From positions 1-64,000 of the forward strand of contig DASRES010000065.1 in the NCBI GenBank assembly GCA_035651955.1: 64,000 nt of DNA. Direction: 5' to 3'. This document shows, piece after piece, positions 33,431-60,904 of the stretch (its first letter is position 1; the number at the start of each line of letters is the position of its first letter). The notes below the pieces were generated by a model that was given only the letters and a program-made list of their open reading frames with translations, ran no database searches and had not been told where the DNA came from. Position numbers and translations under genes: made by a program. This DNA is from Acidimicrobiia bacterium (GTDB lineage Bacteria > Actinomycetota > Acidimicrobiia > IMCC26256 > JAMXLJ01).

Positions 33431-34227
33431 GCGTCCACCTGCCAGCGTGCGTCCCGCCGCTCCGCGAACGCGCGGGGACCTTCCTCCTGGTCGGGGTGAC
33501 CCCACATGCCGACGAGCTCGCGCGACCCTGCGCGACAGGCGTCCGTCAGACCCGCCTCGAGCGCGCCCCACAGCGCGCGCTTCGTCGCCGCCATCGCGGC
33601 GGGCGAGTTGCGGGCGATCTTCTCCGCGAGCGCCTGCGCCTCGTCACGCAGGCGATCGGGCGGGTCGACGACCTGCGACAGGATCCCGAGCTCGTATGCA
33701 CGCTGCGCCGTCATCCGCTCGTGCCGGCCGACGAGCGCCATGCGCGTGATCGCCTCCATCGGCGACTTCCGTGCGAGCCCGATGGTCTCGTACGCGCTGA
33801 CCTGACCGATCGACACGTGGGGATCGAGGAACGTCGCGTCGGACGAGGCGATCACGATGTCGGCGTCGGCGACGAAGTGCAGCCCACCGCCCGCGCACAC
33901 GCCGTTCACGGCCGCGATCACGGGCTTCCACACGCGGTTGTGCCACGCGGTGAGCCGGAGGTCGGCATCACGTGTGCGGCGCGACTGCTCCCGGAGCGCG
34001 TCCTTGTCGCGCGCGAGCTGCGCGACGTCGAGACCGGTCTGGAACGCGCGCCCGTTCCCGGTGTTGACGATCACCCGGACCGCGGGGTCGTCGTCGAGCT
34101 CGCGCCATGCGCGCTCGAGCTCGCGGAACATCGTGGCGTCCATCGCGTTGCCCGCGTCGGGCCGGTCGAACACCAGCCAGCCGACGGCGCCGCGCCGCTC
34201 GACGACGAGCGTCTCGTACGCGCTCAC
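33427..34227 (-). CDS. Crotonase-fold enoyl-CoA hydratase-like enzyme with His/His active-site substitutions (copy 1)
   Basis: A 266-residue paralogue of the next gene, about half identical in the first two thirds and nearly identical at the C-terminus. His117 (CAGGGLHFVAD) and His137 (FLDPHVSIG) replace the two catalytic glutamates of classical crotonase. A GTG start at 34227 overlaps the acyl-CoA dehydrogenase stop by 4 bp. Two diverged copies kept side by side suggest either a heteromer or sequential reactions in one pathway. Confidence 0.85.
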   Translation of the reverse strand: MSAYETLVVERRGAVGWLVFDRPDAGNAMDATMFRELERAWRELDDDPAVRVIVNTGNGRAFQTGLDVAQLARDKDALREQSRRTRDADLRLTAWHNRVWKPVIAAVNGVCAGGGLHFVADADIVIASSDATFLDPHVSIGQVSAYETIGLARKSPMEAITRMALVGRHERMTAQRAYELGILSQVVDPPDRLRDEAQALAEKIARNSPAAMAATKRALWGALEAGLTDACRAGSRELVGMWGHPDQEEGPRAFAERRDARWQVDA

Positions 34228-35501
34228 GAGCGGGGCACCTCGCGCCAGGCCGCGCCCTGCCACGGGTCGGGCTCGCGCGGGAGCCCGAGCACGCGCTCCC
34301 CTACGACGTTCTTGTTGATCTCGGTCGTGCCGCCCTCGATCGTGTTCGCACGGCTGCGGAGCATGCCGGCGACCTCGTACGGCAGCGTCGTTGCGTAGTC
34401 GGACGCGTCGACGCCGGTCGCGACCTCGAACGCGGTGGCCGCCATGCCCAGCGCGGCGACGGCCTGCTCCTGCATCCGCTGGTTGAGCGAGCCCTGGTGG
34501 ACCTTTCCGATCGAGCTCTCGGGGCCCGGGGCGCGACCGGCCTTCACCTGCGCGCGCACACGCTGGTTCGTCCACGCGCGGATCCGCTCCTCGCTGAACA
34601 GGCGCATCAGGTGCTGGCGGGCGACCGGGTCGCTCGCGTGGCCGGTGCGCCGCGCGAGATCGAGCAGGCGGGTCACGCTCGAGCCGCCGATGCGGTCGAC
34701 GCCCCCGGAGCCGGCGCCCGACACCATCTGGCGCTCGCCCGAGAGCGTCGCGTTGGCGACGCGCCACCCGTCGCCGACGTCACCGACGCGCTGGGAGTCC
34801 GGGACGCGCGCACCGTCGAGGAACACCTCGTTGAACTCGCGCTCGCCACCGATGTGGCGCAACGGCCGGACCTCGACGCCGGGCTGGTGCAGGTCGAGCA
34901 GGAAGTAGGTGATGCCCCTCCGCTTCGGGACGTCGGGATCGGTGCGCGCGAGCAGCACGCCGAAGTCGGCGAGGTGCGCCCACGTCGTCCACACCTTCTG
35001 CCCGTGGACGACCCACTCGTCGCCGTCACGCGTCGCGACGGTCGCGAGCGACGCGAGGTCGCTGCCCGCGCCCGGCTCGCTGAACAGCTGGCACCACACC
35101 TCGTCGTTGCGCACGATCGGAGGCAGGAACCGCAGGCGTTGCTCCTCGGTGCCGTGCGCGAACAGAGCGGGCGCGGCGAGGTTGAGCCCGAGCGGGTTGA
35201 GCCGGCCGAGGTTGTACGGCGCGAGCTCGGCCTCGATCGCACGCGCGACAGCCGGTGTCAGGTCGAGCCCGCCGTACGCGACGGGCCAGGTCGGCACGAC
35301 GAGCCCCGAATCGGCGAACCGCGGGTACCAGGCCTCGTAGTCGGCGCGCGAGCGCACGTCCCGGATCGCGGCGGGCCCGCCGCGGCGGGCTGCTTCGCGC
35401 CACTCGACCGGCACGTGCTCCTCGACCCAGTCACGAGCGACGCGCGCGGCGTCGTCCGGCGGCGTCGTGCGGTCGATCGCGAGTCGCGTGCCGGCCGTCA
35501 T
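34224..35501 (-). CDS. Acyl-CoA dehydrogenase
   Basis: A 425-residue flavoenzyme with the FAD/substrate signature WCQLFSEPGAGSDLASLATV, WTTWAHLADFGVLLARTD, and the C-terminal helix NTIEGGTTEINKNVVGERVL. It introduces a 2,3-double bond into an acyl-CoA, passing electrons to ETF. The length (over 400 residues) and GGTTEI tail are typical of actinomycete FadE proteins acting on cyclic or branched acyl-CoAs. ATG at 35501 overlaps the ligase stop by 4 bp, making a translationally coupled chain ligase, dehydrogenase, crotonases. Confidence 0.92.
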   Translation of the reverse strand: MTAGTRLAIDRTTPPDDAARVARDWVEEHVPVEWREAARRGGPAAIRDVRSRADYEAWYPRFADSGLVVPTWPVAYGGLDLTPAVARAIEAELAPYNLGRLNPLGLNLAAPALFAHGTEEQRLRFLPPIVRNDEVWCQLFSEPGAGSDLASLATVATRDGDEWVVHGQKVWTTWAHLADFGVLLARTDPDVPKRRGITYFLLDLHQPGVEVRPLRHIGGEREFNEVFLDGARVPDSQRVGDVGDGWRVANATLSGERQMVSGAGSGGVDRIGGSSVTRLLDLARRTGHASDPVARQHLMRLFSEERIRAWTNQRVRAQVKAGRAPGPESSIGKVHQGSLNQRMQEQAVAALGMAATAFEVATGVDASDYATTLPYEVAGMLRSRANTIEGGTTEINKNVVGERVLGLPREPDPWQGAAWREVPRS

Positions 35502-40694: not shown

Positions 40695-40739
40695 AGATGC
40701 GGCACTGACTCCCGGATTCCGGGAGTCAGTGCCGCATCT
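40695..40739. terminator. Perfect 22-bp-arm hairpin terminator
   Basis: The arm at 40695-40716 (AGATGCGGCACTG...CCCGGA) is exactly repeated in inverse at 40718-40739, with a single T at the centre. It starts immediately after the ligase stop codon and is followed by one T and CACGC, so there is no T-run. It separates the catabolic unit from gntR. Confidence 0.85.
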
Positions 40740-40755
40740 TCACGCTCGGCGGTTC

Positions 40756-40771: not shown

Positions 40772-41455
40772 GTGAGTACCGCGCGGCCTGAGCTCGTCCG
40801 GCGCAGCAGTGGCGAGCACGCGGCCGTCCACATCCGCCGGCTCATCTTCGACGGCGAGCTGCGCCCGGGAACGCGTGTCCCCCAGGAGCAGATCGCGCAG
40901 GCGCTCGGGATCAGCCGCATCCCGATCCGCGAGGCGCTCATCGCGCTGGAGCGTGAGGGGTGGGTGACGATCGAGCTGCACCGCGGCGCCTTCGTCAACG
41001 CGCTCGACGAGCGCGCGGTCCGCGACACCTACGACCTCTTCGGGCTCGTGTACGGCTTCGCGGTGCGCCGTGCGGTGGAACGCACGGACGGTGACCTCGC
41101 CGCGCGGCTGCGCGAGCTCGCCGACGCGGTCGCCGCGTCGGACGATCCCGACGAGGTCGGCAAGAACGTGCTCGCGTTCCACGCCGCGGTCGTGGACGCC
41201 GCCGCGTCGCCGCGCGTGCGGGTCGTGCTGCGGTCGATGTCCGGCCTGATCCCGGGCAGCTTCTTCGCGCTTGTGCCGGGCGCGATCGAGAGCGAGCGCA
41301 AGGGCCTGACGACGATCGCGCGCGCCGTCGCTCGTCACGACGCCGAGAAGGCCGCCGCCGGGTACGAGCGGATGATGCGCAAGCAGGGCGAGCTCGTCGT
41401 GAAGCTGTTCGAGCAGCGCGGCCTGTTCGACGAGCCGGGAGGTGCGGGAGCGTGA
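40772..41455 (+). CDS. GntR-family transcriptional regulator (FCD/FadR subgroup)
   Basis: A 227-residue protein. The N-terminal winged helix (HAAVHIRRLIFDGELRPGTR, EQIAQALGISRIPIREALIA, GWVTIELHRGAFVNALD) is classical GntR. The helical C-terminal domain (residues ~85-215, with LAFHAAVVDAAASPRVRVVL) is FCD-like, a class that binds carboxylates or acyl-CoAs through metal-coordinating His/Asp. It probably represses the flanking acyl-CoA catabolic units through the palindromes noted nearby. The stop overlaps the amidohydrolase start (GTGA). Confidence 0.9.
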   Translation: MSTARPELVRRSSGEHAAVHIRRLIFDGELRPGTRVPQEQIAQALGISRIPIREALIALEREGWVTIELHRGAFVNALDERAVRDTYDLFGLVYGFAVRRAVERTDGDLAARLRELADAVAASDDPDEVGKNVLAFHAAVVDAAASPRVRVVLRSMSGLIPGSFFALVPGAIESERKGLTTIARAVARHDAEKAAAGYERMMRKQGELVVKLFEQRGLFDEPGGAGA

Positions 41456-42744
41456 CGGTCAGCGCCGACGACCTGATCCTGATCTCCGTCGACGACCACA
41501 TCTGCGAGCCGGCCGACATGTTCGACGGCCACGTCCCCGCGCGATACCGCGACCGCGCGCCGCGCGTCGTCGACGAGCCGGACGGCTCGCAGCAGTGGTA
41601 CTACGGCGACGTCCGCGGGCGGAACCTGGGACTGAACGCGGTCGCGGGCAAGCCACCCGAGATGTACAACGTGAACCCGTCGCGCTACGAGGACATGCGC
41701 CCGGGCTGCTACGACGTCGACGCGCGCGTGCGCGACATGTCGGCCGGCGGCCAGCTCGCGGGGCTGAACTTCCCGAACTGGACCGGGTTCGCGGGCCAGG
41801 TGCTGCAACTCGGCCCGGACCGCGATGTCAACCTCGTCATGATCAAGGCGTACAACGACTGGCACGTCGACGAGTGGTGCGGCGCGCACCCCGAGCGGTT
41901 CATCCCGTGCGGCATCCTGCCGCTCTTCGACGTCGAGGAGGCCGCGAAGGAGATCCACCGCCTCGCGGCGAAGGGCTGCCACGCGGTCACGTTCTCCGAG
42001 AACCCGGTCGGGCTCGGCATGCCGAGCATCCACACCGACGCGTGGGACCCGTTGTTCGCCGCGTGCTGCGACACCGGCACCGTGCTGTGCTGCCACGTCG
42101 GCTCGTCGTCGAAGTCCGCGTCGACGACGCCGGACGCGCCGCCCCCGGTGCCGATGAACCTGTCGTCGACCATGTCGATCTACACGCTCGGCGACCTCCT
42201 GTGGGCGGGGTTCTGGCACCGCTTCCCGGCGTTGCGCTTCGCGCTGAGCGAAGGCGACATCGGGTGGATCCCGTACTTCCTGCAGCGCGCCGAGCACACG
42301 CTCGCCCGTCACAACGGGTGGATGCGCCACGAGCAGCCGCAGGGCCTGAGCCCGACCGAGCTCTTCCACGAGCGGATCCTCGTGTGCTTCATCGAGGACC
42401 GCGTCGGGATGGAGCTGCTGGACCGGTTCAACGTCGACAACGTGTGCTGGGAGTCCGACTACCCGCACTCCGACAGCTCGTGGCCGAACGCACCCGAGCA
42501 CCTCGCGTCGATGTTCGACGGCGTCGACGGCGCGCGCGTCGCGAAGATCACGCACGAGAACGCGATGCGCCACTTCCGGTTCGATCCGTTCGCGTCGCGT
42601 GCGCGCGAGCGCTGCACCGCGGCCGCGCTGCGCGCCGAGGCCGGCGACGTCGACACCGTCACCCACGTCGGTCGCCTCGCGGACGAGTCCGACCGTGACG
42701 CGTGGCGCAGGATGACGGGCGCGGCCGCGCGCACCGCCCGTTAG
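41452..42744 (+). CDS. Amidohydrolase-2 (ACMSD-like) metal-dependent hydrolase, copy 1
   Basis: A 430-residue TIM-barrel hydrolase beginning ILISVDDHICEPADMFDGHV, with barrel residues CCHVGSSSK (metal His), HRFPALRFALSEGDIGWIPY and VCWESDYPHSDSSWP (catalytic Asp). This amidohydrolase-2 family includes decarboxylases and hydrolases of ring-cleavage products and is common in actinomycete catabolic clusters. Coupled to gntR by a 4-bp overlap, so the regulator may sense its substrate or product. A related gene is at 48491. Confidence 0.87.
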   Translation: MTVSADDLILISVDDHICEPADMFDGHVPARYRDRAPRVVDEPDGSQQWYYGDVRGRNLGLNAVAGKPPEMYNVNPSRYEDMRPGCYDVDARVRDMSAGGQLAGLNFPNWTGFAGQVLQLGPDRDVNLVMIKAYNDWHVDEWCGAHPERFIPCGILPLFDVEEAAKEIHRLAAKGCHAVTFSENPVGLGMPSIHTDAWDPLFAACCDTGTVLCCHVGSSSKSASTTPDAPPPVPMNLSSTMSIYTLGDLLWAGFWHRFPALRFALSEGDIGWIPYFLQRAEHTLARHNGWMRHEQPQGLSPTELFHERILVCFIEDRVGMELLDRFNVDNVCWESDYPHSDSSWPNAPEHLASMFDGVDGARVAKITHENAMRHFRFDPFASRARERCTAAALRAEAGDVDTVTHVGRLADESDRDAWRRMTGAAARTAR

Positions 42745-44970: not shown

Positions 44971-45753
44971 ATGGCGAGCGAACGGGTGCACCTGAGCATC
45001 GACGGCGCGATCGCGACGATCACGAACGACAACCCGGAGAAGCACAACGCGTTCGACGACGACATGGACGTCGAGCTGTTCGCGATCCTCGACGAGCTCG
45101 CGTCGCGTCGCGACATCCGAGCCGTCGTGTGGCGGGGTGAAGGCGCGTCGTTCTCGTCGGGCCGCGACGTCGGGTCGATCGGCAACCTCAAGGTCGAGCT
45201 GTCGCACCACGAGCTCATGCGGCGCGGCCATCGCGGCATCCAGCGGCTCTGGGACCTGGATGCGCCGGTGATCGTCGCGTGCAAGGGATGGGTGATGGGC
45301 GGGTCGTTCCAGCGCGCGCTGCTCTGCGACATCCGCATCGCGTCGGAGGACGCTCGCTTCCGCCTCCCCGAGGTCGGCTTCGGCGTCATCCCCGACACCG
45401 GCGGGGTGGCAGTCCTGTACGAGATGTGCGGCCACGGCGTCGTGAGCGACATGGTCCTGAGTGGGCGCGTGCTCTCGGCACACGAAGCGCTGTCGCACGG
45501 GATCGTCAGCCGCGTCGTCGCGCCCGACGAGCTCGACGCGACGGCACGCGAGATCGCCGAGAAGATCGCCGCCGCACCGGCCGTCACGGTGAAGATGGCG
45601 CGGGAGGTGATCCGGCACCTCAGCGTGCCCGCGATCCGCACGTCGATGGCCGACGAGATGATCTACCAGACGTTCATCAACCGCAGCGACGACTTCGCGG
45701 AGCTCCGGGCCGCGCGCGCCGAGGGCCGCGAGCCGCGCTACACGGGGAGCTGA
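44971..45753 (+). CDS. Crotonase-fold enoyl-CoA hydratase/isomerase
   Basis: A 260-residue crotonase with oxyanion motifs SFSSGRDVGSI and KGWVMGGSFQ. The second catalytic Glu is kept (Glu134 in FRLPEVGFG), while the first is Gln114 (GGSFQRALLCD). With one acidic residue it is more likely an isomerase or other crotonase-fold activity than a classical hydratase. ATG at 44971. An OYE-family reductase gene starts 5 bp downstream, so both act in one pathway, perhaps on unsaturated acyl-CoAs. Confidence 0.87.
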   Translation: MASERVHLSIDGAIATITNDNPEKHNAFDDDMDVELFAILDELASRRDIRAVVWRGEGASFSSGRDVGSIGNLKVELSHHELMRRGHRGIQRLWDLDAPVIVACKGWVMGGSFQRALLCDIRIASEDARFRLPEVGFGVIPDTGGVAVLYEMCGHGVVSDMVLSGRVLSAHEALSHGIVSRVVAPDELDATAREIAEKIAAAPAVTVKMAREVIRHLSVPAIRTSMADEMIYQTFINRSDDFAELRAARAEGREPRYTGS

Positions 45754-45758
45754 TCGAC

Positions 45759-46967
45759 ATGGCCGACACCACCTCCGTTCCCGACGTGTTCGCACCGGCG
45801 AAGCTCGGGCCGGTCACGTTGCGCAACCGGGTCATCAAGGCGGCGACGTTCGAGGGGGTCATGCCCGACGGGCTCGTGACCGACGCGCTCGTCGAGTACC
45901 ACCGTCGCGTCGCGCGCGGCGGCGTCGGGATGACGACGGTCGCGTACCTCGCCGTCGCGCCCGAGGGCCGCACCGACCGGCACTGCATCCATCTGCGCGA
46001 CGAGGCGCTCGCGGGCCTCCGGGTGCTCACCGACGCGATCCACGACGAGGGCGCCGCGATCGCGGCGCAGATCGGTCACGCAGGGCCGGTCGCGAACGCG
46101 AGGTCGAACCGTGCGCCGTCGCTCTCGCCGTCGGGCGGCTTCAGCCCGCTGGGCTCGCGGATGCGCGCCGTCACCGACGCCGACATCGCCCGGATCACGG
46201 ACGACTACGCACGCGGCGCGCGCATGATCGCCGACGCCGGGTTCGACAGCATCGAGATCCACCTCGGCCACAACTACCTGCTCTCGGCGTTCCTGAGCCC
46301 GAAGCTGAACAAGCGCACAGACGGCTACGGCGGGAGCCTCGAGAACCGGGCCCGGTTCCCGCGAGCAGTGGTGAAGGCGGTGCGCGACGCCGTCGGCGAC
46401 CGTCTCGCGGTGACCGCGAAGGTCAACATGGCGGACGGCACGCCGGGCGGCTTCTGGCTGAACGAGAGCGTCGAGTTCGCCCGCATGCTCCAGGCCGACG
46501 GCGCGCTCGACGCCCTCGAGCTCACGGGTGGGAGCTCGCTCGCCAACCCGATGTACCTGTTCCGCGGTGAGGCGCCGATCGCCGAGTTCGCGGCGACGCA
46601 GCCGCAGCCGATCCGGCTCGGCATGCGTCTGTTCGGGAAGCGCTTCCTGATCGAGTACCCGTGGGAGGAGGCGTTCTTCCTCCCCTACGCGCGGCAGTTC
46701 CGCGCCGCGCTCGACATGCCCCTGATCCTCCTCGGCGGCATCAACCGGCGGGAGACGATGCAGCAGGCCATGGCGGAGGGGTTCGCGTTCGTCGCGATGG
46801 CGCGCGCGCTCCTCCGCGAGCCCGACCTCGTCAACCGGATGCAGAAGGGCGCGACGGACGAGTCGCTGTGCATCCACTGCAACAAGTGCATGCCGACGAT
46901 CTACAGCGGGACGCGCTGCGTCCTCGTCGAGGCCGAGCCGCCGGCCGGCCCGAGCACCGTGGCGTAG
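45759..46967 (+). CDS. Old yellow enzyme-family NADH:flavin oxidoreductase, short form with Fe-S cysteines
   Basis: A 402-residue FMN TIM barrel (FAPAKLGPVTLRNRVIKAAT; IAAQIGHAGPVANARSN; GFDSIEIHLGHNYLLSAFLS; KLNKRTDGYGGSLENRARFP). The C-terminal CIHCNKCMPTIYSGTRCV supplies Cys spacing like the 4Fe-4S site of 2,4-dienoyl-CoA reductase FadH/BaiCD. The FAD/NAD(P) domain that follows in FadH is absent, so electrons must come from a partner. ATG at 45759 with GGGGAGC upstream. Confidence 0.87.
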   Translation: MADTTSVPDVFAPAKLGPVTLRNRVIKAATFEGVMPDGLVTDALVEYHRRVARGGVGMTTVAYLAVAPEGRTDRHCIHLRDEALAGLRVLTDAIHDEGAAIAAQIGHAGPVANARSNRAPSLSPSGGFSPLGSRMRAVTDADIARITDDYARGARMIADAGFDSIEIHLGHNYLLSAFLSPKLNKRTDGYGGSLENRARFPRAVVKAVRDAVGDRLAVTAKVNMADGTPGGFWLNESVEFARMLQADGALDALELTGGSSLANPMYLFRGEAPIAEFAATQPQPIRLGMRLFGKRFLIEYPWEEAFFLPYARQFRAALDMPLILLGGINRRETMQQAMAEGFAFVAMARALLREPDLVNRMQKGATDESLCIHCNKCMPTIYSGTRCVLVEAEPPAGPSTVA

Positions 46968-49604: not shown

Positions 49605-50213
49605 TCAGCTCGACGACGGCTCGCGCGCGCCGAGGCCGCGCAGCGCGAACGCGAGCGCGTGACGGAAGAAGGCCGGCGTGATCCGCTGGTGCAGCATGAA
49701 CGCCTGGTGGTACAGGCCGCCGGTGACGAGGCTGTACGCCTGCTCGACGGTGGGTGCGTCGTCGAGCTCGCCACGCTGCTTCGCGCGCGCCAGGATCCCG
49801 CGCAGCTCCGCGAGCCGCGGCGCGGTGAACTTCTCGCGCAGCGCCGCCGCGAGGTCCGTGTTCCCCGACACCTCGGTGCCGAGCGCGTCGGCGACGTCCT
49901 CCCGTCGCGCCGCGATCGAGCGCGCGATGTTGGCGAGGAACGCTTTCAGGTCACCGTCGAGGCTGCCGGTGTCGACCGCAGCCGGCTCGGGTGCGAGTGT
50001 CGCGACCGCGGCCGCGACGAGATCCTGCTTCGTCGCCCACCGGCGGTACAGCGTGGCCGACGACACGCCGGCGCGCTCGATCACCGCGGCAACGGTCAAC
50101 CCCGCGTAGCCCTTCTCGACGAGCACCTCGAGCGTCGCGTCGAGGATCGTCGCGTCGCACGCCGGGCTCCGCTGGCGCCCGGGATGCGTGGCGGGAGCAG
50201 GCGAGGTCGTCAT
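49605..50213 (-). CDS. TetR-family repressor of the adjacent MFS exporter
   Basis: A 202-residue protein with an N-terminal TetR helix-turn-helix (ATILDATLEVLVEKGYAGLT, VAAVIERAGVSSATLYRRWA) and a helical ligand domain (ALREKFTAPRLAELRGILAR; TGGLYHQAFMLHQRITPAFF). ATG at 50213 overlaps the MFS stop (ATGA), so exporter and repressor are co-transcribed and co-regulated, presumably from the TTTCGAAA array at 51865-51904. Confidence 0.9.
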   Translation of the reverse strand: MTTSPAPATHPGRQRSPACDATILDATLEVLVEKGYAGLTVAAVIERAGVSSATLYRRWATKQDLVAAAVATLAPEPAAVDTGSLDGDLKAFLANIARSIAARREDVADALGTEVSGNTDLAAALREKFTAPRLAELRGILARAKQRGELDDAPTVEQAYSLVTGGLYHQAFMLHQRITPAFFRHALAFALRGLGAREPSSS

Positions 50214-51865
50214 GCTGAGGACACCTGCTCCGCTTCGAGCGCGCCCTCGGCTTCCGCGAACGTGAGAGACGCGACACCGTCGAGCGCGCCGGACTCGTCC
50301 GCGCGCGCGTCCTGTGCGCGCGCCGGCAGGAACGCGAACACGACGATCGCGGCCAGCAGCACGACCACCGCACCGACGATCTCCGCGCGCGCGAACGCGT
50401 GGATGAACTCGGCGTGGCCGGCGCTCGCGAGCGCACGTCCGACGGAGCCGGGCAGGTGCGCGGCCGCGTCCACCGCGCCACCGACCGAGTCGGTCGCCGC
50501 CGACGCGACACCGGCAGGCAGGTGCATGCCGGCGACCCGGGTCGCCATCCCGGGCCGGTACGACGCGGCCAGCACCGAGCCGATGACCGCGACGCCGAGC
50601 GCACCGCCCATCTGGCGCGTCGTGTCGTTCATCGCGGAGCCGACCCCGGCCTTCTCGACGGGCAACGACCCCATGATGGACTCCGTGGCGGGCGCCATGA
50701 CGAACCCCATGCCCGTCGACAGGATCGACATCGACACGAGCAGCAGCGTGTAGCCGCTCGACGTCGTCACCTGCGCCATCAGCACGAGTCCCACGACCGA
50801 CAGCACGAGACCGCCGCCGACGACGAGCTTCGTGCCGATGTGCTCGACGACCCGCGGCGACAGCGGCGCGACGACGAGCATGATCGCGGCCATCGGGAGC
50901 AGCCGGATGCCCGCCTCCAGCGCGCCGTACCCGAGCACGTTCTGGAGGTACTGGGTCATCACGAACATCGACCCGTACATCGCGAAGAACGTCATCGTGA
51001 TCGCGCCGTTCGCAGCCGAGAAGCGCGGGTTGCGGAAGAAGCGGACGTCCAGCATCGGGTGGTCGCACGTCAGCTCCCACACGACGAAGGCGGCGAGCAC
51101 CACGACGCCCAGGAGCAACGAGCCGACGACCGTCGCGCTCGTCCATCCCTTCGTGGGCGCCTCGATGATGGCCCACAGCACGGCGACGAGACCCGCGACC
51201 GACAACGACGCGCCGGCGAGGTCGAGACGCGGCGCGTTCGGGTCGCGCGACTCGGGGAGGAGGAACCGGCCGGCGACGAGCGCGACCGCGGCGATCGGCA
51301 CGTTGATCAGGAACACCGATCCCCACCAGAAGTGGCGGAGCAGGAACCCGCCGATGACCGGCCCGAGCGCGCCACCACCACCGGCGACCGCCGCCCACGC
51401 GCCGATCGCGCGCGCACGCTCCTTCGGGTCGCGGAAGACGTTGGTCAGCAACGACAGCGTCGCCGGCATGATGAGCGCGGCACCGATGCCCATGAACGCG
51501 CGCGTGAACACGAGCGCGGTCGCCGACCCCGCGAACGCGGAAGACGCCGAGCCGAGGCAGAAGATCGCGAGCCCGGTGCTGAGCGCGCGCTTGCGCCCGA
51601 TGCGGTCGCCGAGGCTCCCGGTCGTGAGGAGCAGGCCGGCGAACACGAGCGTGTAGCCGTCGACGATCCACTGCAGCTGGCTCGTCGACGCGTGGACGTC
51701 GCGGATGAGCGCGGGCAGGGCGACGTTCAGGACGGTGTTGTCGAGCGTGATGACCGCGAGGCTCAGGCACATGACCGCGAGCGCCCACCACCGGCGCCGG
51801 TCGAGCCGGGCGTCGGCGAGGGGGATCGCGGCGTCCACGGACGTCGCATCGGCGGTCACGGCCAT
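50210..51865 (-). CDS. MFS multidrug exporter, DHA2 (EmrB/QacA) family, 14 TM
   Basis: A 551-residue protein with 14 hydrophobic helices. The motif-A-like loop GSLGDRIGRKRALSTG, the helix-1 motif LDNTVLNVALPALIRDV and motif C GGGGALGPVIGGFLL match proton-driven drug exporters of the DHA2 family. It extrudes hydrophobic compounds across the cytoplasmic membrane. ATG at 51865 lies within the first TATCGAAA repeat of the operator, so repressor binding and translation start are adjacent. Confidence 0.92.
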   Translation of the reverse strand: MAVTADATSVDAAIPLADARLDRRRWWALAVMCLSLAVITLDNTVLNVALPALIRDVHASTSQLQWIVDGYTLVFAGLLLTTGSLGDRIGRKRALSTGLAIFCLGSASSAFAGSATALVFTRAFMGIGAALIMPATLSLLTNVFRDPKERARAIGAWAAVAGGGGALGPVIGGFLLRHFWWGSVFLINVPIAAVALVAGRFLLPESRDPNAPRLDLAGASLSVAGLVAVLWAIIEAPTKGWTSATVVGSLLLGVVVLAAFVVWELTCDHPMLDVRFFRNPRFSAANGAITMTFFAMYGSMFVMTQYLQNVLGYGALEAGIRLLPMAAIMLVVAPLSPRVVEHIGTKLVVGGGLVLSVVGLVLMAQVTTSSGYTLLLVSMSILSTGMGFVMAPATESIMGSLPVEKAGVGSAMNDTTRQMGGALGVAVIGSVLAASYRPGMATRVAGMHLPAGVASAATDSVGGAVDAAAHLPGSVGRALASAGHAEFIHAFARAEIVGAVVVLLAAIVVFAFLPARAQDARADESGALDGVASLTFAEAEGALEAEQVSSA

Positions 51866-51904
51866 ATCGAAAGAGTAGCGTTTCGAAATACCGCTGTTTC
51901 GAAA
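51865..51904. promoter_or_regulatory. Three-site TTTCGAAA operator array of the MFS-tetR operon
   Basis: TATCGAAA (51865-51872), TTTCGAAA (51881-51888) and TTTCGAAA (51897-51904) recur every 16 bp. Each full copy is itself palindromic. The array covers the -10/-35 region (TACTCT and TTTCGAAAC on the minus strand) right up to the start codon. This is the expected place for TetR autoregulation. Confidence 0.65.
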
Positions 51905-51949
51905 CCACGGCGTGACGGTCGTCACGGGAGGGTGGGTACGGTCGGGGCC

Positions 51950-52258
51950 GTGAGCGACCGCGACCCGGAGCCGCCCGACCCCGAGCTCGACGCCCTCGAG
52001 GCGGCCAGCGCGCTGTGGCCCGTCGCTCTCGAGGTGCGCTTCCGGCGCGACGTCTCGCCCCAGGCCATCGCCGACTTCCTCGACACGCTGCGGCTCGAGG
52101 ACCTCCCGGGCGAGGCCCGGCTGACGACCGACGTCGACGCCCGCCGCAGCACCGTCGCGTTCGCGCCCTGGACGCGCGGCGCCGAGCGGACGCGCTGGGA
52201 GCGCCGGCTCCGCGACGACCACCTCGTCGCGGAGGTGCGGACCCCCGACGAGGGGTGA
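51950..52258 (+). CDS. Hypothetical 102-residue protein
   Basis: A short acidic/basic protein (SDRDPEPPDPELDALEAASA; LEVRFRRDVSPQAIADFLDT; ERTRWERRLRDDHLVAEVRT). A GTG at 51950 follows a GGGAGGGTGGG stretch. It has no family I recognise, no membrane segment and no Cys. Alternating beta/alpha with charged surfaces suggests a small folded cytoplasmic protein. It converges on the CoA-transferase gene. Coding-type GC pattern and a good ribosome site make it likely real. Confidence 0.6.
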   Translation: MSDRDPEPPDPELDALEAASALWPVALEVRFRRDVSPQAIADFLDTLRLEDLPGEARLTTDVDARRSTVAFAPWTRGAERTRWERRLRDDHLVAEVRTPDEG

Positions 52259-52276: not shown

Positions 52277-53524
52277 TCAGCCGAGCGCCTTGGCGTCCCT
52301 CAGCGCGGCGAGGCGGGCGTCGTCGTACCCGAGGACCTCGTGCAGCACCTCGTCGGTGTGCTGGCCGAGCGTCGGCGCCTTCGTCGGGACGGGCAGCTCG
52401 CCGTCCACGAGCTTGACCGGGAACGGCAGCTGCTCGGCACCGAGCCGCTCGCGCGGCAGCCAGGGCAGCCGGTCCTGGAACTGCGGGTCGTCCGCGATCG
52501 TCTTCGGCGAGTTCACCGGCGCGATCGGCGTGTTGACCCGACCGCCGAACTCGAGCCACTCCGCGGACGTCTTCGTGCGGAAGATGTCGCGCAGCTCACG
52601 GTGCATCTCGACGTTGCCGCGCGCGTGGTCGGCGTACTTCGAGCCCGGCCACCGCTCGAACATGTCCATGCGGTCGACGCCCTCGCAGAAGTTCTTCCAG
52701 AACGCCTGCTCCGACGCCATGAAGAGCACGTAGCCGTCCTTCGTCTCGTAGACGTTGTACCGGACGCCCTCCTTCATGCCCGCGGTGCCGGGCGCGCGCC
52801 GGACGTAGTCGTCCGACTTGTTGCCGGTGACCTCGCTCTCGGGCCGCTCGTAGGACTTGTAGGTCTCGGAGCGCAGCCAGTCGATCGCGGCCGCGGCGTC
52901 GGACTGCGCGACCTCCATGCGCGACCCCTCGCCCGTCGCGCGCGCCTGCAGGATCCCCGACAGGATGCCGAGCGCGCCGTAGAGCGGGCCTGCGTTGATC
53001 CCGATCGACACGTGCTCTGGGAGGTACGCGAAGCCGTCCTCGTCGACCTCCGGCGCCACGATGCCCGCCCACGTGTCGTACGCGATCCCGTGGCTCGGGT
53101 AGTCCTTGTACGGGCCGGTCATGCCGTAGCCCGAGATCGTGATGAACACGATGCGCGGGTTCACCTCGCGCAGCTTCTCGAACCCGAGGCCGCGCCGCTC
53201 GAGCCCGCCCGGGCGCATGGCCTCGACCACCGCGTCCGCGTGGCGCACGAGGTCGAGGAACACCTCGACGCCCTCCGCCGTCCGCAGGTCGAGGACGACG
53301 CTGCGCTTGCCCCGGTTCGTGTGCAGGTGCATGAGCGACGTGCCCTCGACGATCGGCCACGTCATCTCGCGCACGTAGTCGCCCGAGGGTGGCTCGACCT
53401 TGATCACGTCGGCGCCGAGGTCGGCGAGGCAGGTCGTGATGGCCGCCGGCCCGAGCATCGAGCACTCGACGATGCGCACGCTCTCGAGCGGCCGGACCGT
53501 GTGTGACGGGGCGTCAGAGGTCAT
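52277..53524 (-). CDS. Class III acyl-CoA transferase (CaiB/BaiF family)
   Basis: A 415-residue enzyme with LESVRIVECSMLGPAAITTC, LADLGADVIKVEPPSGDYVR, NRGKRSVVLDLRTAEGVEVF and ITISGYGMTGPYKDYPSHGI, the conserved CaiB/BaiF blocks. It moves CoA between carboxylic acids (or racemises 2-methylacyl-CoA) and so activates a substrate without ATP. ATG at 53524. An SDR gene lies 24 bp upstream on the same strand. Confidence 0.9.
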   Translation of the reverse strand: MTSDAPSHTVRPLESVRIVECSMLGPAAITTCLADLGADVIKVEPPSGDYVREMTWPIVEGTSLMHLHTNRGKRSVVLDLRTAEGVEVFLDLVRHADAVVEAMRPGGLERRGLGFEKLREVNPRIVFITISGYGMTGPYKDYPSHGIAYDTWAGIVAPEVDEDGFAYLPEHVSIGINAGPLYGALGILSGILQARATGEGSRMEVAQSDAAAAIDWLRSETYKSYERPESEVTGNKSDDYVRRAPGTAGMKEGVRYNVYETKDGYVLFMASEQAFWKNFCEGVDRMDMFERWPGSKYADHARGNVEMHRELRDIFRTKTSAEWLEFGGRVNTPIAPVNSPKTIADDPQFQDRLPWLPRERLGAEQLPFPVKLVDGELPVPTKAPTLGQHTDEVLHEVLGYDDARLAALRDAKALG

Positions 53525-53548: not shown

Positions 53549-54301
53549 TCAGGTCGTGACCGACCCGCCGTTGAGCTGGAGCGTCTGGCCCGTCATCCAC
53601 GACGCCTCGTCGGACGCGAGGTAGACGCACAACGCCCCGATGTCCTCCGGCCGGCCGAGCCGCCCGACGGGCACCTGGCGCGCGAGCCGCGCCGTGACGT
53701 CGGAGCCACCGGTGTTGTCCATCAGCCCGATGGCGAGCGTGTTCGCGGTGACACCGAAGCGTGCGTTCTCGATCGCGAGGTGACGCATGAACCCGATCGC
53801 GCCGCCCTTGCCCGCGCCGTACGCCGCGACGCCGATGTTCAGGCCGACGGTGCCCGCACCCGACGCGATCGTGATCACGCGCCCGAACCCGCGCTCGCAC
53901 ATGCCGTTGATCACGGCGCGGCTGCAGTGCAGGACGCCGTACAGGTTCACCCGCAGCGGCCCCTCCCACGCGGACGGGTCGGTGTCGCGGAACGCCTGCG
54001 GGACCATCGCGTGCTCGCCACCGTTGCCCGCGTTGTTGACGAGCACGTCGACGGGCCCGAGCTCGCGCTCGACGTCGGCGACCCCGCGCGTCACGGCGTC
54101 GAAGTCCGTCACGTCGAACGGGACGGCGCGCGCGGCACCGCCCGCGTTGCTGATCGCCTCGACCGTGTCGACCGCGCGCTCGATGCGCAGGTCGTTGACC
54201 GCCACACGCGCACCTTGCGCAGCGAGCGTGCGCGCGATCCCCGCGCCCACGCCCTGCCCCGCGCCGGTGACGAGCGCTCGCTTCCCCGTCAGGTCGAACA
54301 C
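53549..54301 (-). CDS. SDR-family oxidoreductase (3-hydroxyacyl-CoA dehydrogenase-like)
   Basis: A 250-residue classical SDR: TGAGQGVGAGI (NAD(P) binding), VLVNNAGNGGE, and catalytic S-Y-K in IASGAGTVGLNIGVAAYGAG (YGAGK). The C-terminal GRLGRPEDIGALCVYLASDE is typical of FabG/3-hydroxyacyl dehydrogenases. ATG at 54301. The 56-bp gap to the divergent kinase gene should contain both promoters; I see no clear element there. Confidence 0.88.
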   Translation of the reverse strand: MFDLTGKRALVTGAGQGVGAGIARTLAAQGARVAVNDLRIERAVDTVEAISNAGGAARAVPFDVTDFDAVTRGVADVERELGPVDVLVNNAGNGGEHAMVPQAFRDTDPSAWEGPLRVNLYGVLHCSRAVINGMCERGFGRVITIASGAGTVGLNIGVAAYGAGKGGAIGFMRHLAIENARFGVTANTLAIGLMDNTGGSDVTARLARQVPVGRLGRPEDIGALCVYLASDEASWMTGQTLQLNGGSVTT

Positions 54302-54357
54302 CGTGCGGGACCGTACCCCACGTCGCGACGTCCGACGGCGTGGCAGGCTGGGTCACC

Positions 54358-55431
54358 GTGTCGACCGACGACGCCGTCCCGATCGGGCCGCTGACCGAAT
54401 GGCTGCACGCGAACGTTGCCGGCTCGCACGGCGCGGTGCACGTCGAGCAGCTGTCGGGTGGGTCGTCGAACCTCACGTTCCGCGTGCGCGACGACGTCCA
54501 CGACCTCGTGCTGCGGCGGCCGCCGCTCGGTCGCGTGCTCGCCACCGCGAACGACGTCCTGCGCGAGCACCGCGTGCAGCACGCGCTCGCGGCGACCGAC
54601 GTGCCCGTCGCGGCGATGCTCGGCGCGTGCGCCGACGTGAGCGTGATCGGCGCGCCGTTCTACGTCATGTCCATGCTCGACGGCGTCGTCTACACGGACG
54701 CCGAGGCGGTCGCACACCTCACCGAGGCAGACGCGCGTGCGGCGTCGTACGAGCTCGTCGACGTGCTCGTTCGACTGCACGCCGTCGACCCGTCCGCGGT
54801 CGGGCTCGCGGACCTCGGCCGTCCGGACGGGTTCCTCGAGCGCCAGGTGCGGCGCTGGCGGACGCAGTGGGAGACATCGAAGCAGCACGACTGCCCGGAG
54901 ATCGAGGAAGTCGCCGACCGTCTCTCGCGTGCCGTGCCCGCGGGAGCGCACACCGGGATCGTGCACGGCGACTACAGCTTCAACAACACGATCTGGGAGC
55001 GCCACCGGCCGGCGGTGATGCAGGCCGTCCTCGACTGGGAGATGGCGACGCTCGGCGACCCTCTGACCGACCTCGGGATGCTCGTCACGTACTGGGGACC
55101 CGTCGGCGAGCGACTGTGGCGTGCACGCGCACCGCAACCGCACCGCGCGAACGCCGGGTTCCCGTCCGCGGACGCGCTCGTCGAGCGGTACGCGCGTGCG
55201 AGCAGCCGGCCGCTCGACGACATCGACTTCTATCGCGTGCTCGCCACGTTCAAGCTCGCGGTGATCTCGGAGGGCGCGCTGGCGCGCATCGTGGAGCGTG
55301 CGCCGGAGCGCGCCGCGTCGACGCGCGCGGTCGTCGAGGAGCTGGCGGCCGCCGCACTCGACCAGGCCGAGCGGTCGTCCGACCCCGCCCTCAACGGACG
55401 CGCCCGCGCGAAGGAGGCGTACCAGAGATGA
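54358..55431 (+). CDS. APH-family phosphotransferase (ACAD10/11-type hydroxyacyl kinase-like)
   Basis: A 357-residue protein with a protein-kinase-like fold: glycine-rich LSGGSSNLTFRV, catalytic HGDYSFNNTIWE and metal-binding VLDWEMATLGDPLTDLG. This family in actinomycete lipid clusters resembles the kinase half of ACAD10/11, which phosphorylates 4-hydroxyacids. A choline/aminoglycoside kinase role is less likely in this setting. GTG at 54358 (or 54340). The stop overlaps the P450 start by 4 bp (ATGA), so the two products are coupled. Confidence 0.85.
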   Translation: MSTDDAVPIGPLTEWLHANVAGSHGAVHVEQLSGGSSNLTFRVRDDVHDLVLRRPPLGRVLATANDVLREHRVQHALAATDVPVAAMLGACADVSVIGAPFYVMSMLDGVVYTDAEAVAHLTEADARAASYELVDVLVRLHAVDPSAVGLADLGRPDGFLERQVRRWRTQWETSKQHDCPEIEEVADRLSRAVPAGAHTGIVHGDYSFNNTIWERHRPAVMQAVLDWEMATLGDPLTDLGMLVTYWGPVGERLWRARAPQPHRANAGFPSADALVERYARASSRPLDDIDFYRVLATFKLAVISEGALARIVERAPERAASTRAVVEELAAAALDQAERSSDPALNGRARAKEAYQR

Positions 55432-56633
55432 CCGACGTCGTGCTGCACGACCCCGCGACGTACGCGCACGGGTTCCCGTACGAGCACTTCCGTGCGCTGC
55501 GCGACCACGATCCCGTCTCACACCACGACCACCCGAGCTGGGCGCGCGGGTACTGGGTCGTGGCGCGTCACGAGGACGTGCAGCGCGTCTCGCGCGACTC
55601 GGGCACGTTCCGCAACGCGCCGCACCCGTTCCTCGAAGGGCGCGCCGACGACGACCAGAGCGAGGCGTCTGGGCTGCTCATCAGCCTCGACGCGCCCGAG
55701 CACGTCAAGCTGCGCAAGCTGATCAACCGCGGGTTCACGCCCCGGCGCGTCGCCGACCTCACCGACCGGATCCGGGCGCGCGTCGACACCATCTTCGACG
55801 ACCTGCGGGACCGGCGGTCGTGCGATCTCGTCGGCGACGTCGCGCTGTGGCTGCCGCTGCACGTCATCGCGGACCTCGTCGGCGTGCCGGAGGCCGACCG
55901 GCGGAAGGTGTTCGAGTGGACCGAGACGACGTTCGGGTTCGATGCGTCGGTGACTCCGGACGAGCAGCGCGACGCGATGACGCAGATGTTCGGCTACGCG
56001 GACGCGTTGTGCGAGGAGCGCCGTCGCGAGCCGCGCGACGACCTGCTGAGCGTCCTCCTCGACGCCGACGTCGACGGCGAGCAGCTGTCGCAGCTCCAGA
56101 TCGACCTGTTCTTCATGCTGCTGCAGAACGCGGGCAGCGAGACGACCCGCAACCTCATCACGACCGGGACGCTCGCGTTGCTGCAGCATCCCGACCAGCT
56201 CGCGCGGGTGCGAGCCGACCTCGAACTGCTGCCGGTCGCGATCGAGGAGCTCCTCCGCTACGTCACGCCCGTGATGCAGTTCGTGCGCCATCCCGTCGTC
56301 GACACCGAGATCGCGGGCACAACGATCGAGGCCGGTGACCGCGTCGTGATGTTCTACGCGTCGGCGAACCGCGACGAGCGCGCGTTCGACGAGCCCGACG
56401 CGCTCGACGTGACCCGTACGCCGAACGACCACGTCGCGTTCGGTGCGGGTGGACCCCACTTCTGCCTCGGTGCGAGCCTGGCCCGGCTCGAGGCCCGCAT
56501 CATGTTCGAGGCGATCCTGACGCGCTTCACGGATCTCGAGGTGGACGCGGACGTCGACACGCTGCCGCGGGTCAGCTCGAACCTGATCGACGGGTTCGTG
56601 CACCTCCCGGTGCGCTGGTCGGCGATCAACTGA
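55428..56633 (+). CDS. Cytochrome P450 (CYP124/125/142-like)
   Basis: A 401-residue P450 with I-helix oxygen motif QNAGSETTRNLITT, ExxR in AIEELLRYV, and heme-binding FGAGGPHFCLGASLAR with Cys346 as the thiolate ligand. Its overall look and setting fit the actinomycete P450 group that hydroxylates branched lipid or sterol side chains. Redox partners are not adjacent. ATG at 55428 with AAGGAGG upstream. Confidence 0.92.
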   Translation: MTDVVLHDPATYAHGFPYEHFRALRDHDPVSHHDHPSWARGYWVVARHEDVQRVSRDSGTFRNAPHPFLEGRADDDQSEASGLLISLDAPEHVKLRKLINRGFTPRRVADLTDRIRARVDTIFDDLRDRRSCDLVGDVALWLPLHVIADLVGVPEADRRKVFEWTETTFGFDASVTPDEQRDAMTQMFGYADALCEERRREPRDDLLSVLLDADVDGEQLSQLQIDLFFMLLQNAGSETTRNLITTGTLALLQHPDQLARVRADLELLPVAIEELLRYVTPVMQFVRHPVVDTEIAGTTIEAGDRVVMFYASANRDERAFDEPDALDVTRTPNDHVAFGAGGPHFCLGASLARLEARIMFEAILTRFTDLEVDADVDTLPRVSSNLIDGFVHLPVRWSAIN

Positions 56634-56647
56634 TCGAGGGCGCTTTT

Positions 56648-56691
56648 GTGAAGCGTCATGCACACACTGTGTGCATGACGCTTCACAGAAC
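56648..56691. terminator. Palindromic element, copy B
   Basis: GTGAAGCGTCATGCACACA (56648-56666) is a perfect inverted repeat of 56668-56686 around a single C. It is preceded by TTTT and followed by AGAAC, as in copy A at 16054, and the 44-bp units are about 85% identical. It is placed 15 bp after the P450 stop. No T-run follows, but TTTT precedes, giving a bidirectional design. Confidence 0.75.
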
Positions 56692-57510: not shown

Positions 57511-59682
57511 TCACTCCGGCGTCGCCGACGCGCGTGTCGCCTCGCTGCGCGCGAGCAACCATCCCGGTGGTGTGACGACGACCGCCACCGTCGCGTCGAG
57601 CACGCCGATCATCCGCTCGACGAGGTGACCGAGGAACGCGGTGCCCTCCGCGGCCCGGAGCTCGGCCGAGAGCACGACGAGATCCGCGTCGACGTCGGCC
57701 GCGATCGCGGGGATCTCGCGCGAGCGTGAGCCCGCGCGCGTGACGGCGCGCGGCCGCAGGCCGAGCCGGCGCGCGAGCTGGCTCGCCTCGGTCACGAGCC
57801 CGCGTGACGCGATCCGTCCCGAGCGCTGCGCGTCGGCGCCGACCGCGACGAGGTCCGCGTCGTCCGGCGCGACGTGCGCGACGACGAGATCCGCGTCGTT
57901 CGCGGCCGCGAGCGCGAACGCGATCTCTTGTGCCGCGCGGTTGGGCAGCGTGCCGACGACGGGCACGAGGACGCGCCTGAACCCGTCGCCGAGCTGCTGC
58001 CGCGCGTGCGGGCCCGCCCACACGACGACGACCGGCAGCGCGCTCCTCTGCAGCAGCGACTGCGTGAGCGCGGAGAGCAGGTCGGCGGAGATTCCCGTCT
58101 CGCGGGCGCCGACCGCCACGACCTCGTAGCCGAGCCCGACGTGCTCGGTGAGCGCGTCGAGCGCGTCGAGCGCGTCCGCTCCACCGAGCTCCTCCTGCTC
58201 GACGGGTCGTCGCTCGAACACCGCGGTCGCGCCGTCAGCCGCGGACGCGCCCGCCGGATCCGCCGCTATCACGGTCGCGGGCGAGTCGCTCGGCCACGCG
58301 AGGTCGACGATCTTCGCGGCGAGTAGCGTGCCCTCGCCGCGCTGCGCCGGCACGAGCACGCGACCCGGTCGCACGAGCAGGTTCTCCGAGTAGATCTGCT
58401 CGCGGTCCAGCCGTTCCCGCTCCTCGGTCGTGCCGCGCCACGCGGACGCGATCGCGCGCAACAGCGGCGGGGCGACCATCGACGTCGCCAGCGCCATGAT
58501 CACGACCACCGTGTACATGCGCGTGTTGAGGACCCCGAGCCCGAGGCCGACGGTCGCGACGACGATCTCCAGCGCGCCGCGGGCGTTCAGGCCGACTCCG
58601 AGTGCGAAACCCTCCTGCCGCGGGAGGCCCGCGAGGCGGGCGCCGAGGTAGCCGCCCGCGAGCTTGCCGACGCTCGCGACCGCGATGACGACGGCGGTGA
58701 ACAGCAGCACGTCCCCGCGACCCAGCAGCGCGAGGTCGACGCGCAGTCCCGCGGTCGCGAAGAACACAGGTGCGAACACCGCGTTCGTCATCGTCTCGAC
58801 GCGCTCGACGAGCCGCGTGTCCTGGTAGCGCGACCGCGCGAGCACCATGCCGGCGACGAATGCACCGAGCACCGCCTCGACGCCGAGCGCCTGCGTGATC
58901 GCCCCCGCCGTGAACACGACGAGCAACGTGATCGACAGCCCGCTCGTCATGCCCGGCCGGCGCTTGCGGAAGCTGCGCAGCAGCTCGTCGACGATCCGCT
59001 GACCGAGCGTGAACGCGCCGAGCACGAACAGGGCGACCGCGAGGATCGTCAAGCCGAGACGGCCGAACCCGATCGCGCCCGAGCGTGCCGCGCTCGCGAG
59101 CACGCCGAGGAGCAGCCAGCCGACGACGTCGTTGACCATCCCGGCCGCGAGCGTCAGCTGCCCGAAGTTACGACGCGTGAGGCGCAGGTCCTGCAGCACC
59201 TTCGCGATCACGGGCAGCGACGAGATGCTGAGCGCGGTCGCGACGAACCCGGCGAACACGCCGCGGGAGCCGTTCCCGACGAACGCGTGCGGGAGCTGGA
59301 AGCCGAGCGCGAGCCCGAGCGCGAACGGAAGTGCGATCGACAACACCGCGACCGATGCGAGCGCGGCGCCGAGCTGACGCACGAGACCGAGGTCGGTCTC
59401 GAAGCCGGTCACCGCGAGCAGCATCACGATGCCGACCCAGCCGACCGCGCTGATCATCCCCGACTGCACGACGTGGGGCGGGAACAGCCAGCGTGCCGCG
59501 CCGGGCGCGAGCTTCCCGAACACGGACGGGCCGAGCAGCAACCCCGCCGCGAGCTCCCCGACGACCGCCGGCTGCCCGATCCGGCGCATCAGCGCGCCGA
59601 GCGCGCGGGCGACACCGACGAGCACGACGAGCTCGACCCAGAACACGAGGAACACGTGCTCCGGGATCGGTTCGATCCTCAC
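57511..59682 (-). CDS. CPA2-family Na+/H+ antiporter with C-terminal UspA-like region
   Basis: A 723-residue protein. About 12-13 membrane helices run to residue ~430 (WVELVVLVGVARALGALMRR; AVVGELAAGLLLGPSVFGKL; GMVNDVVGWLLLGVLASAAR with the ND transport motif; GLNARGALEIVVATVGLGLG). The C-terminal ~280 residues have two UspA-like segments (RVLVPAQRGEGTLLAAKIVD; RVLVPVVGTLPNRAAQEIAF, DADLVVLSAELRAAEGTAF). It exchanges Na+ or K+ for H+, with nucleotide sensing by the soluble part inferred. GTG at 59682 has GGGGGAG upstream. Confidence 0.88.
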   Translation of the reverse strand: MRIEPIPEHVFLVFWVELVVLVGVARALGALMRRIGQPAVVGELAAGLLLGPSVFGKLAPGAARWLFPPHVVQSGMISAVGWVGIVMLLAVTGFETDLGLVRQLGAALASVAVLSIALPFALGLALGFQLPHAFVGNGSRGVFAGFVATALSISSLPVIAKVLQDLRLTRRNFGQLTLAAGMVNDVVGWLLLGVLASAARSGAIGFGRLGLTILAVALFVLGAFTLGQRIVDELLRSFRKRRPGMTSGLSITLLVVFTAGAITQALGVEAVLGAFVAGMVLARSRYQDTRLVERVETMTNAVFAPVFFATAGLRVDLALLGRGDVLLFTAVVIAVASVGKLAGGYLGARLAGLPRQEGFALGVGLNARGALEIVVATVGLGLGVLNTRMYTVVVIMALATSMVAPPLLRAIASAWRGTTEERERLDREQIYSENLLVRPGRVLVPAQRGEGTLLAAKIVDLAWPSDSPATVIAADPAGASAADGATAVFERRPVEQEELGGADALDALDALTEHVGLGYEVVAVGARETGISADLLSALTQSLLQRSALPVVVVWAGPHARQQLGDGFRRVLVPVVGTLPNRAAQEIAFALAAANDADLVVAHVAPDDADLVAVGADAQRSGRIASRGLVTEASQLARRLGLRPRAVTRAGSRSREIPAIAADVDADLVVLSAELRAAEGTAFLGHLVERMIGVLDATVAVVVTPPGWLLARSEATRASATPE

Positions 59683-59794
59683 CGGCTCCCCCCTGCGAGA
59701 TGCACGAGCCGGGGGTGTACCCAACGAGCGCGTGCAGGGAACCGTGACAGGTACCGGCAGTAGTGTCCCGCGCCCGCGAGCGAGGAGGCCCCGC

Positions 59795-60904
59795 ATGGCC
59801 ATGAGGACACCGATCTGCGACCGGCTCGGCATCGAGTTCCCGCTGTTCGCGTTCTCGCACTGCCGCGACGTCGTCGCCGCGGTGAGCAGGGCCGGCGGCT
59901 ACGGGGTGCTCGGCGCGCTCGCGTACAGCCCCGACCAGCTCGAGATCGAGCTGTCGTGGATCGACGAGCACGTCGACGGCAAGCCCTACGGCGTGGACTT
60001 CGCGATGCCGGAGAAGTTCGTCGGCAAGGGTGAGGAGTTCGACCTCGGCTCGCTGCAGGCGATGATCCCCGAGGAGCACCGGCAGTTCGTCGAGAAGATC
60101 CTCGCCGAGCACGACGTCCCCCCGATGCCCGAAGGTGTCGAGGGCGTGATGAAGGCCGCGGGTCTCGGGGTCGAGGCCGAGGGACCGGGGCAGGTCGACG
60201 TCGCGCTCGGCCACCCCGTCTCGATGCTCGTGAACGCGCTCGGGCCGCCGCCGGAATACGTCATCGAGGCCGCGCACTCGAGCGGTGTGCTCGTCGGCGC
60301 GCTCTGCGGCAGCCCGCGCCATGCCGAGCGCAACGTCGAGCGGGGTGTCGACGTGATGATCGCCCAGGGCACGGAGGCGGGCGGGCACTGCGGCGAGATC
60401 TCGACGATGGTGCTCGTGCCCGAGGTCGTCGACACCGTCGGACCCGACGTTCCGGTGCTCGCCGCGGGCGGCATCGGGCGCGGGCGTCAGATGGCCGCCG
60501 CGATGGCGCTCGGCGCGCAGGGCGCGTGGACGGGCTCGATCTGGCTGACGGTCGCGGAGTCCGAGACGCAACCGTGGGTCGTGGAGAACCTTCTGGCCGC
60601 GGGGTTCACCGACACCGTGCGATCGCGCGCGATGACGGGCAAGCCGGCCCGCCAGTTGCGGACCGACTGGACCGAGGCATGGGACGCGCCCGACACGCCC
60701 AACCCGTTGCCGATGCCGCTGCAGGGCCTGCTGTACGCACCGGCCGCGCACCGGTTCATGCGCGTGCGTTCGCGCGCGCTCTCGGGCTCGCCCGTCGGTC
60801 AGATCATCGGGCGCGTCGACCGTGTGCGTCCCGCGCGCGACGTCGTGTACGAGATCGTCGAGGAGTGGATCGAGACGACCCAGCGGATGTGCGCCGAGAC
60901 GTGA
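59795..60904 (+). CDS. Nitronate monooxygenase-like FMN enzyme
   Basis: A 369-residue TIM-barrel flavoprotein: MRTPICDRLGIEFPLFAFSH, GYGVLGALAYSP, VDVMIAQGTEAGGHCGEIST (the FMN/His motif AQGxEAGGH) and VPVLAAGGIGRGRQMAAAMA. It oxidises nitronates or related substrates. The ~70-residue insertion after residue 60 (PEKFVGKGEEFDLGSLQAMI) and the DTPNPLPMPLQGLLY tail place it in the actinomycete subgroup next to lipid genes. ATG at 59795 with GAGGAGG upstream. It overlaps the next gene by 4 bp. Confidence 0.88.
   Translation: MAMRTPICDRLGIEFPLFAFSHCRDVVAAVSRAGGYGVLGALAYSPDQLEIELSWIDEHVDGKPYGVDFAMPEKFVGKGEEFDLGSLQAMIPEEHRQFVEKILAEHDVPPMPEGVEGVMKAAGLGVEAEGPGQVDVALGHPVSMLVNALGPPPEYVIEAAHSSGVLVGALCGSPRHAERNVERGVDVMIAQGTEAGGHCGEISTMVLVPEVVDTVGPDVPVLAAGGIGRGRQMAAAMALGAQGAWTGSIWLTVAESETQPWVVENLLAAGFTDTVRSRAMTGKPARQLRTDWTEAWDAPDTPNPLPMPLQGLLYAPAAHRFMRVRSRALSGSPVGQIIGRVDRVRPARDVVYEIVEEWIETTQRMCAET

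Follow-up and report, generated by a model that had tools for sequence, protein, structure and literature searches.

A cytochrome P450 gene that overlaps the gene of a kinase resembling ACAD10/11 raises the question of whether the two proteins act on the same molecule. The host is a soil actinobacterium, the P450 is of a kind that oxygenates lipid-like molecules, and kinases of this kind phosphate-tag hydroxyls for removal. The chemistry of ACAD10/11 was explained only in 2024–2025, for hydroxy acids already present. A preliminary description of the locus had proposed that the P450 adds a hydroxyl which the kinase phosphorylates, turning it into a leaving group so that beta-oxidation can proceed. 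The window, i.e. the whole stretch of DNA analysed here (64,000 nucleotides), belongs to a 4.1-Mb assembly of 92 contigs (G000), in which P450 is matched 28 times (two genes being split in two) and APH 22 times.

Organization of the locus

The kinase and P450 genes share 4 bp, ATGA, as had been described, and the CoA-transferase and SDR genes placed alongside the pair are indeed present (Table 1). An alternative start of the kinase is the GTG at 54340. The overlap in itself was discarded as evidence, since 7 of the 31 same-strand neighbour pairs among the gene calls of the window share exact 4-bp overlaps. Because the P450 has a Shine-Dalgarno-like GAAGGAGG of its own, we infer translational coupling of the two genes only as a possibility. 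Downstream, the hairpin between the P450 and SDR272 means that the latter may not be co-transcribed.

Table 1. Features of the locus and their positions in the window
Feature	Position	Strand	Remarks
GntR/FCD regulator	40772..41455	+	58% to the kinase-adjoining GntR in G043
Amidohydrolase_2	41452..42744	+	83% orthologue adjoins the CoA-transferase orthologue in G046
Enoyl-CoA hydratase	44971..45753	+	PF00378, E 5e-45
OYE/FadH-type flavoenzyme	45759..46967	+	PF00724; 65% to L085 OYE
MFS pump and TetR	49605..52222		
CoA-transferase family III	52277..53524	-	PF02515, E 2e-77
SDR (SDR250)	53549..54301	-	divergent from kinase
Kinase, ACAD10/11-LvaA type, APH fold	54358..55431	+	GTG to TGA, 357 aa; PF01636, E 2e-49
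Shine-Dalgarno-like GAAGGAGG	55410..55417	+	read from sequence; within kinase gene, precedes P450 start
Cytochrome P450, CYP125/124/142 neighbourhood	55428..56633	+	ATG to TGA, 401 aa; PF00067, E 1e-26
Hairpin	56644..56690		near-perfect, 23-nt arms, 1-nt loop; between P450 and SDR272
SDR (SDR272)	56714 (probable start)..57489	+	3' of hairpin; ORF opens at 56671
Nitronate monooxygenase (NMO)-like flavoprotein	59795..60904	+	PF03060 (on ORF 59429-60904)
Acyl-CoA dehydrogenase (ACAD)	34224..35501		without ACAD10/11 motif

Several other elements were observed in the window. The hairpin at 56644–56690 is one copy of a palindromic repeat that is dispersed in the genome and whose arms resemble GAAGCGTCATGCACAC; it is found again at 16056–16090 and on other contigs. 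Such arms gave 53 matches in the genome (up to two mismatches) versus 0 for a reversed control, and they may be terminator hairpins or represent a family of operators. An inverted repeat at 40690–40744 (27-nt arms, 93% complementary, 1-nt loop) lies between AMP-ligase and GntR genes. The OYE carries a C-terminal four-cysteine motif, CIHCNKCMPTIYSGTRC, that may correspond to an Fe-S cluster, and has 402 aa versus about 640 positions in FadH/BaiCD-type models. Positions 60865–62277 encode an esterase-like protein with a C-terminal match to a neocarzinostatin-family domain.

Relationships of the kinase and the P450

The solved structures nearest to the kinase by sequence are 3dxp (E 9e-54), 9o56 and the kinase domain of ACAD11 (8v3v, E 3e-39). 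Its translation contains the motifs HGDYSFNN, DWEM, RE and RQVRRW; the catalytic HGDxxxxN and DWE are kept in all 15 of the closest kinase orthologues and RQxxRW in 14 of them. In PMC12440821, D220, N225 and R176 of ACAD11 are given as catalytic or CoA-contacting residues, and D, N and R of the window kinase align with them, so that the CoA-contacting Arg (R176) is conserved by alignment. The position of R86 is ambiguous in the alignment; both proteins have an Arg ahead of the alpha-C Glu. The assignment to the ACAD10/11 type made in the preliminary description thus stands. Since no ACAD with the phosphate-site motif is present at the locus, the kinase is filed as resembling the ACAD10/11-LvaA acyl-CoA hydroxyl kinases, like which it would work judging from its sequence, and its membership of a kinase-ACAD pair is not taken as proven. 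The 15 kinases form one clade with a support of 100 (FastTree, 127 kinases); in an IQ-TREE analysis of 22 rows the base of this clade was poorly resolved, with one long-branched outgroup row placed inside.

Known systems resemble the locus in part. With the mammalian ACAD10/ACAD11 it shares the kinase fold, the catalytic Asp/Asn and the conserved CoA-contact Arg, as well as the phosphate-site motif seen in ACADs linked to relatives of the kinase. However, ACAD10/ACAD11 have kinase and ACAD domains in one protein, whereas in the window the proteins are separate, a P450 is added and there is no ACAD at the locus. In the levulinate operon of Pseudomonas putida a separate kinase and ACAD, LvaA and LvaC, act on 4-hydroxyacyl-CoA according to two papers (PMC11342911, PMC12440821), and the chemistry proposed for the window kinase is alike; the gene set differs, P450 and TauD being absent from the descriptions of the operon consulted.

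With respect to the P450, the nearest solved chains are CYP125MRCA (404 bits) and the natural CYP125 and CYP124, tied at about 270 bits. The signatures of P450s are a heme Cys loop, ExxR and the I-helix AGxETT, and the translation shows FGAGGPHFCLGA, EELLR and AGSETT, respectively, together with the PF00067 match. Naming within a CYP family requires at least about 40% identity to its members. The nearest characterised P450s attack the terminal methyl groups of sterols and of branched lipids; the primary alcohols that result are commonly oxidised. The window P450 differs from mycobacterial CYP125, CYP124 and CYP142, to which the closest solved chains belong, by its pairing with a kinase. Twenty-one P450 orthologues constitute one clade (99/95), six of whose genomes had no kinase match at the thresholds used.

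Neighbourhoods in other genomes

Conservation of the adjacent pair, by which the preliminary description was to be judged, did not hold. The two genes adjoin in 2 of the 15 closest kinase orthologues, those of the window and of locus L040, and are on different contigs even within the genus: in G001 the gene overlapped by the kinase (68%) is a VOC gene and the P450 orthologue (73%) lies elsewhere, the kinase neighbours including orthologues of SDR250 (76%) and of the CoA-transferase (84%). L040 (genome G569; same class, outside the order of the window) contains an ACAD-kinase-P450 run with 4-bp overlaps, in which the kinase is 62% and the P450 65% identical to those of the window and the ACAD has the R/H/R phosphate-site residues plus the catalytic Asp. 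Ten genomes of family f28 have the kinase at the end of a directon composed of TauD, an unnamed 273-aa gene, OYE (7/10) and ACAD (1/10), with the P450 apart from it. G043 combines the kinase with a GntR gene and a P450 other than that of the window, and in G490 the contig stops next to the kinase. Thus, the kinase directon includes an oxygenase in 13 of the 15 orthologues, namely TauD in ten, the P450 of the window pair in two and the other P450 in G043; these 13 correspond to few independent lineages. The G043 kinase also adjoins a streptomycin-adenylyltransferase-family gene (L056:2970-3779).

The P450 has neighbours of its own. Its orthologue adjoins an NMO-like gene in 11 of 11 f28 genomes, the f28 NMO being 67–70% identical to that of the window (four genomes annotated directly), and an SDR250 match (69–73%) lies near P450-NMO in 4 of them. 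Close by there is a gene that presumably encodes a zinc alcohol dehydrogenase, which it resembles. A gene of the neighbourhoods examined that we take to be EthD-like had no Pfam match. In G002, G043 and G050 the neighbours of the P450 orthologue are ACAD, MaoC or KshA-like genes, the KshA-like calls resting on Pfam in G043 and on gene layout only in G050. In other genomes the orthologue of the window OYE overlaps the kinase or abuts it. OYE, SDR250, CoA-transferase, NMO and GntR are neighbours of either partner elsewhere and all lie near the pair in the window, which unites genes found in two places in other genomes, kinase-OYE and P450-NMO-SDR.

Co-occurrence of the two genes is broader than their adjacency. 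All 15 kinase genomes, 10 of which are one family, so that few lineages are involved, also have the P450 orthologue. Among 397 genomes of the order of G121, 12 carry the kinase and 14 the P450 orthologue (at least 63%), including all 12; among 58 genomes of the order of the window, 3 carry the kinase and 7 the P450, including all 3. The hypergeometric p values are nominal and ignore relatedness: 3e-21 when genomes are counted and 2e-9 when genera are, while the set of 58 genomes gave 1e-3. The large searches scored no more than 4–5 candidates in each genome, and two of these searches used queries from L040. That relatives carry both genes, usually apart, suggests one breakdown pathway.

A P450 occurs within about 2.5 kb of an ACAD10/11-type kinase at 9 of 60 loci (chosen in rank order after rows already having loci, with a few listed rows skipped), against 1.9 expected from P450 density; control loci around CoA-transferases gave a P450 in 2 of 30 at 1.5 kb. 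A general enrichment of P450s around such kinases is not claimed: five of the nine are one orthologous P450-kinase pair and two are another, leaving, in our judgement, about four independent cases. A separate P450-then-kinase pair, of other P450 and kinase subfamilies, is present in ten genomes of the order of the window (L062–L071), and no ACAD adjacent to these pairs was found.

ACADs are the usual partners of such kinases on plasmids. Fifteen named plasmid loci were read, out of 273 records with a kinase match, from Rhodococcus, Streptomyces, Tsukamurella, Arthrobacter, Novosphingobium and Sphingobium. An ACAD directly adjoins the kinase in 13 of them and is within one gene in 14; they share the kinase family and acyl-CoA catabolism genes with the window, but a P450 adjoins the kinase in only one. 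The phosphate-site motif of ACAD11, R626/H634/R637, binds the phosphorylated substrate, as stated in PMC12440821. This motif is complete, together with the catalytic Asp, in 31 of 33 ACADs situated up to 400 bp from a kinase (of the two misses, one is truncated and the other is a second, ordinary ACAD), in 7 of 8 at 400–1200 bp, and in 8 of 20 that are farther away or without a kinase on the locus. The association is partly by construction, because similarity to the L040 ACAD was the criterion by which 30 of the loci had been retrieved; however, on plasmids retrieved through their kinases, 5 of 5 kinase-linked ACADs have the full motif. A linked ACAD with the R-H-R motif is present in L040 and G121. 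No ACAD of the ACAD10/11 type was found in the window, or adjoining the pair, and the ACAD at 34224–35501 was ruled out as the elimination enzyme for want of the motif. The genome carries an unlinked ACAD with the full motif on contig C8.

A probable catabolic pathway and its alternatives

The kinase and the P450 probably take part in a single catabolic pathway that phosphorylates a hydroxyacyl-CoA and afterwards removes the phosphate by elimination. How the P450 would contribute can be read in two ways. The preliminary description would have it hydroxylate the acyl chain at the very position that the kinase phosphorylates before elimination. The gene order of the window and, with an ACAD, of L040 is in line with this, as are the oxygenases in the kinase directons and a Novosphingobium humi plasmid with ACAD-kinase-P450, although the P450 of the latter is very distant. 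However, the f28 P450 is separate from the kinase and near a zinc-dehydrogenase-like gene, so its alcohol may be oxidised instead of phosphorylated, as are usually the primary alcohols known from the nearest characterised P450s. Taken in this strict form the proposal is rather unlikely. The preliminary description as a whole is supported in part, by the kinase type, the L040 run and the co-occurrence, and what failed is the conservation of the adjacent pair. It comes closer to being probable, while falling short of it, that both enzymes work in the same pathway at different steps, the P450 alcohol being dehydrogenated and the kinase removing another hydroxyl (that of the substrate, or in relatives that made by TauD). 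The constant P450-NMO adjoining in f28, with a dehydrogenase-like gene nearby, and the TauD that accompanies the kinase in all ten f28 genomes with the kinase point in this direction, but by itself it leaves unexplained why the genes are ordered as they are in the window and in L040.

Readings without a shared catabolic pathway fare worse. Chance neighbourhood of unrelated genes in a dense genome would agree with the frequency of 4-bp overlaps in the window and with the separation of the two genes within the genus; the same order in L040, from another order of the class, and the co-occurrence in all kinase genomes make it improbable. Detoxification by a phosphotransferase of the antibiotic type that neighbours a P450 and an efflux pump could appeal to the MFS pump and TetR and to the streptomycin-adenylyltransferase-family gene of G043. 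Yet the kinase scores 28.8 bits with the APH(3') model of aminoglycoside phosphotransferases, whose cut-off is 205, and stays far below the curated thresholds of the aminoglycoside, capreomycin and viomycin kinase families; the kinase domain of ACAD11 matches it far better than antibiotic kinases do. The antibiotic-kinase reading was rejected on these scores and, given also the catabolic neighbours and the ACAD linkage across phyla, detoxification is highly improbable.

In the shared catabolic pathway that we prefer, the pair would belong to a lipid- or terpenoid-like catabolic cluster at roughly 40.7–61 kb. The family III CoA-transferase would activate an acid, the kinase would phosphorylate a hydroxyl on the acyl-CoA, and a flavoenzyme would eliminate the phosphate, either the ACAD10/11-type ACAD from contig C8 or possibly the OYE of the cluster; the enoyl-CoA would then enter hydratase and SDR steps, with the P450 as an oxygenase of the same pathway. 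Genes, motifs, neighbourhoods and genome-level co-occurrence are direct observations, whereas we infer which substrates are used, how the steps follow one another and what each flavoenzyme does. An elimination by OYE is a speculation drawn from linkage alone. It is plausible, as far as sequences tell, that the P450 makes the hydroxyl that the kinase phosphorylates, the gene runs of the window and L040 favouring this role and the P450-dehydrogenase neighbourhood of f28 disfavouring it. A doubtful extension would be a modular oxygen-dependent dehydroxylation, in which P450 or TauD installs the hydroxyl, the kinase turns it into a leaving group, and expulsion of the phosphate falls to an ACAD10/11-type ACAD or to an OYE/FadH-type enzyme.

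Among the open-licence papers searched, no description of such a P450-kinase pair was recognised. The chemistry of the kinase was already known, and what appears new is its combination with an oxygenase gene. The proteins of the locus can be studied as separate single-domain enzymes, and the locus offers a possible route of elimination based on OYE. If the modular system were true, acyl chains closed to beta-oxidation would be opened, and OYE would be a second, unrelated solution to phosphate elimination. If the union of kinase and oxygenase is true, some bacteria would make a hydroxyl in order to phosphorylate it, which would be an addition to lipid and terpenoid degradation.
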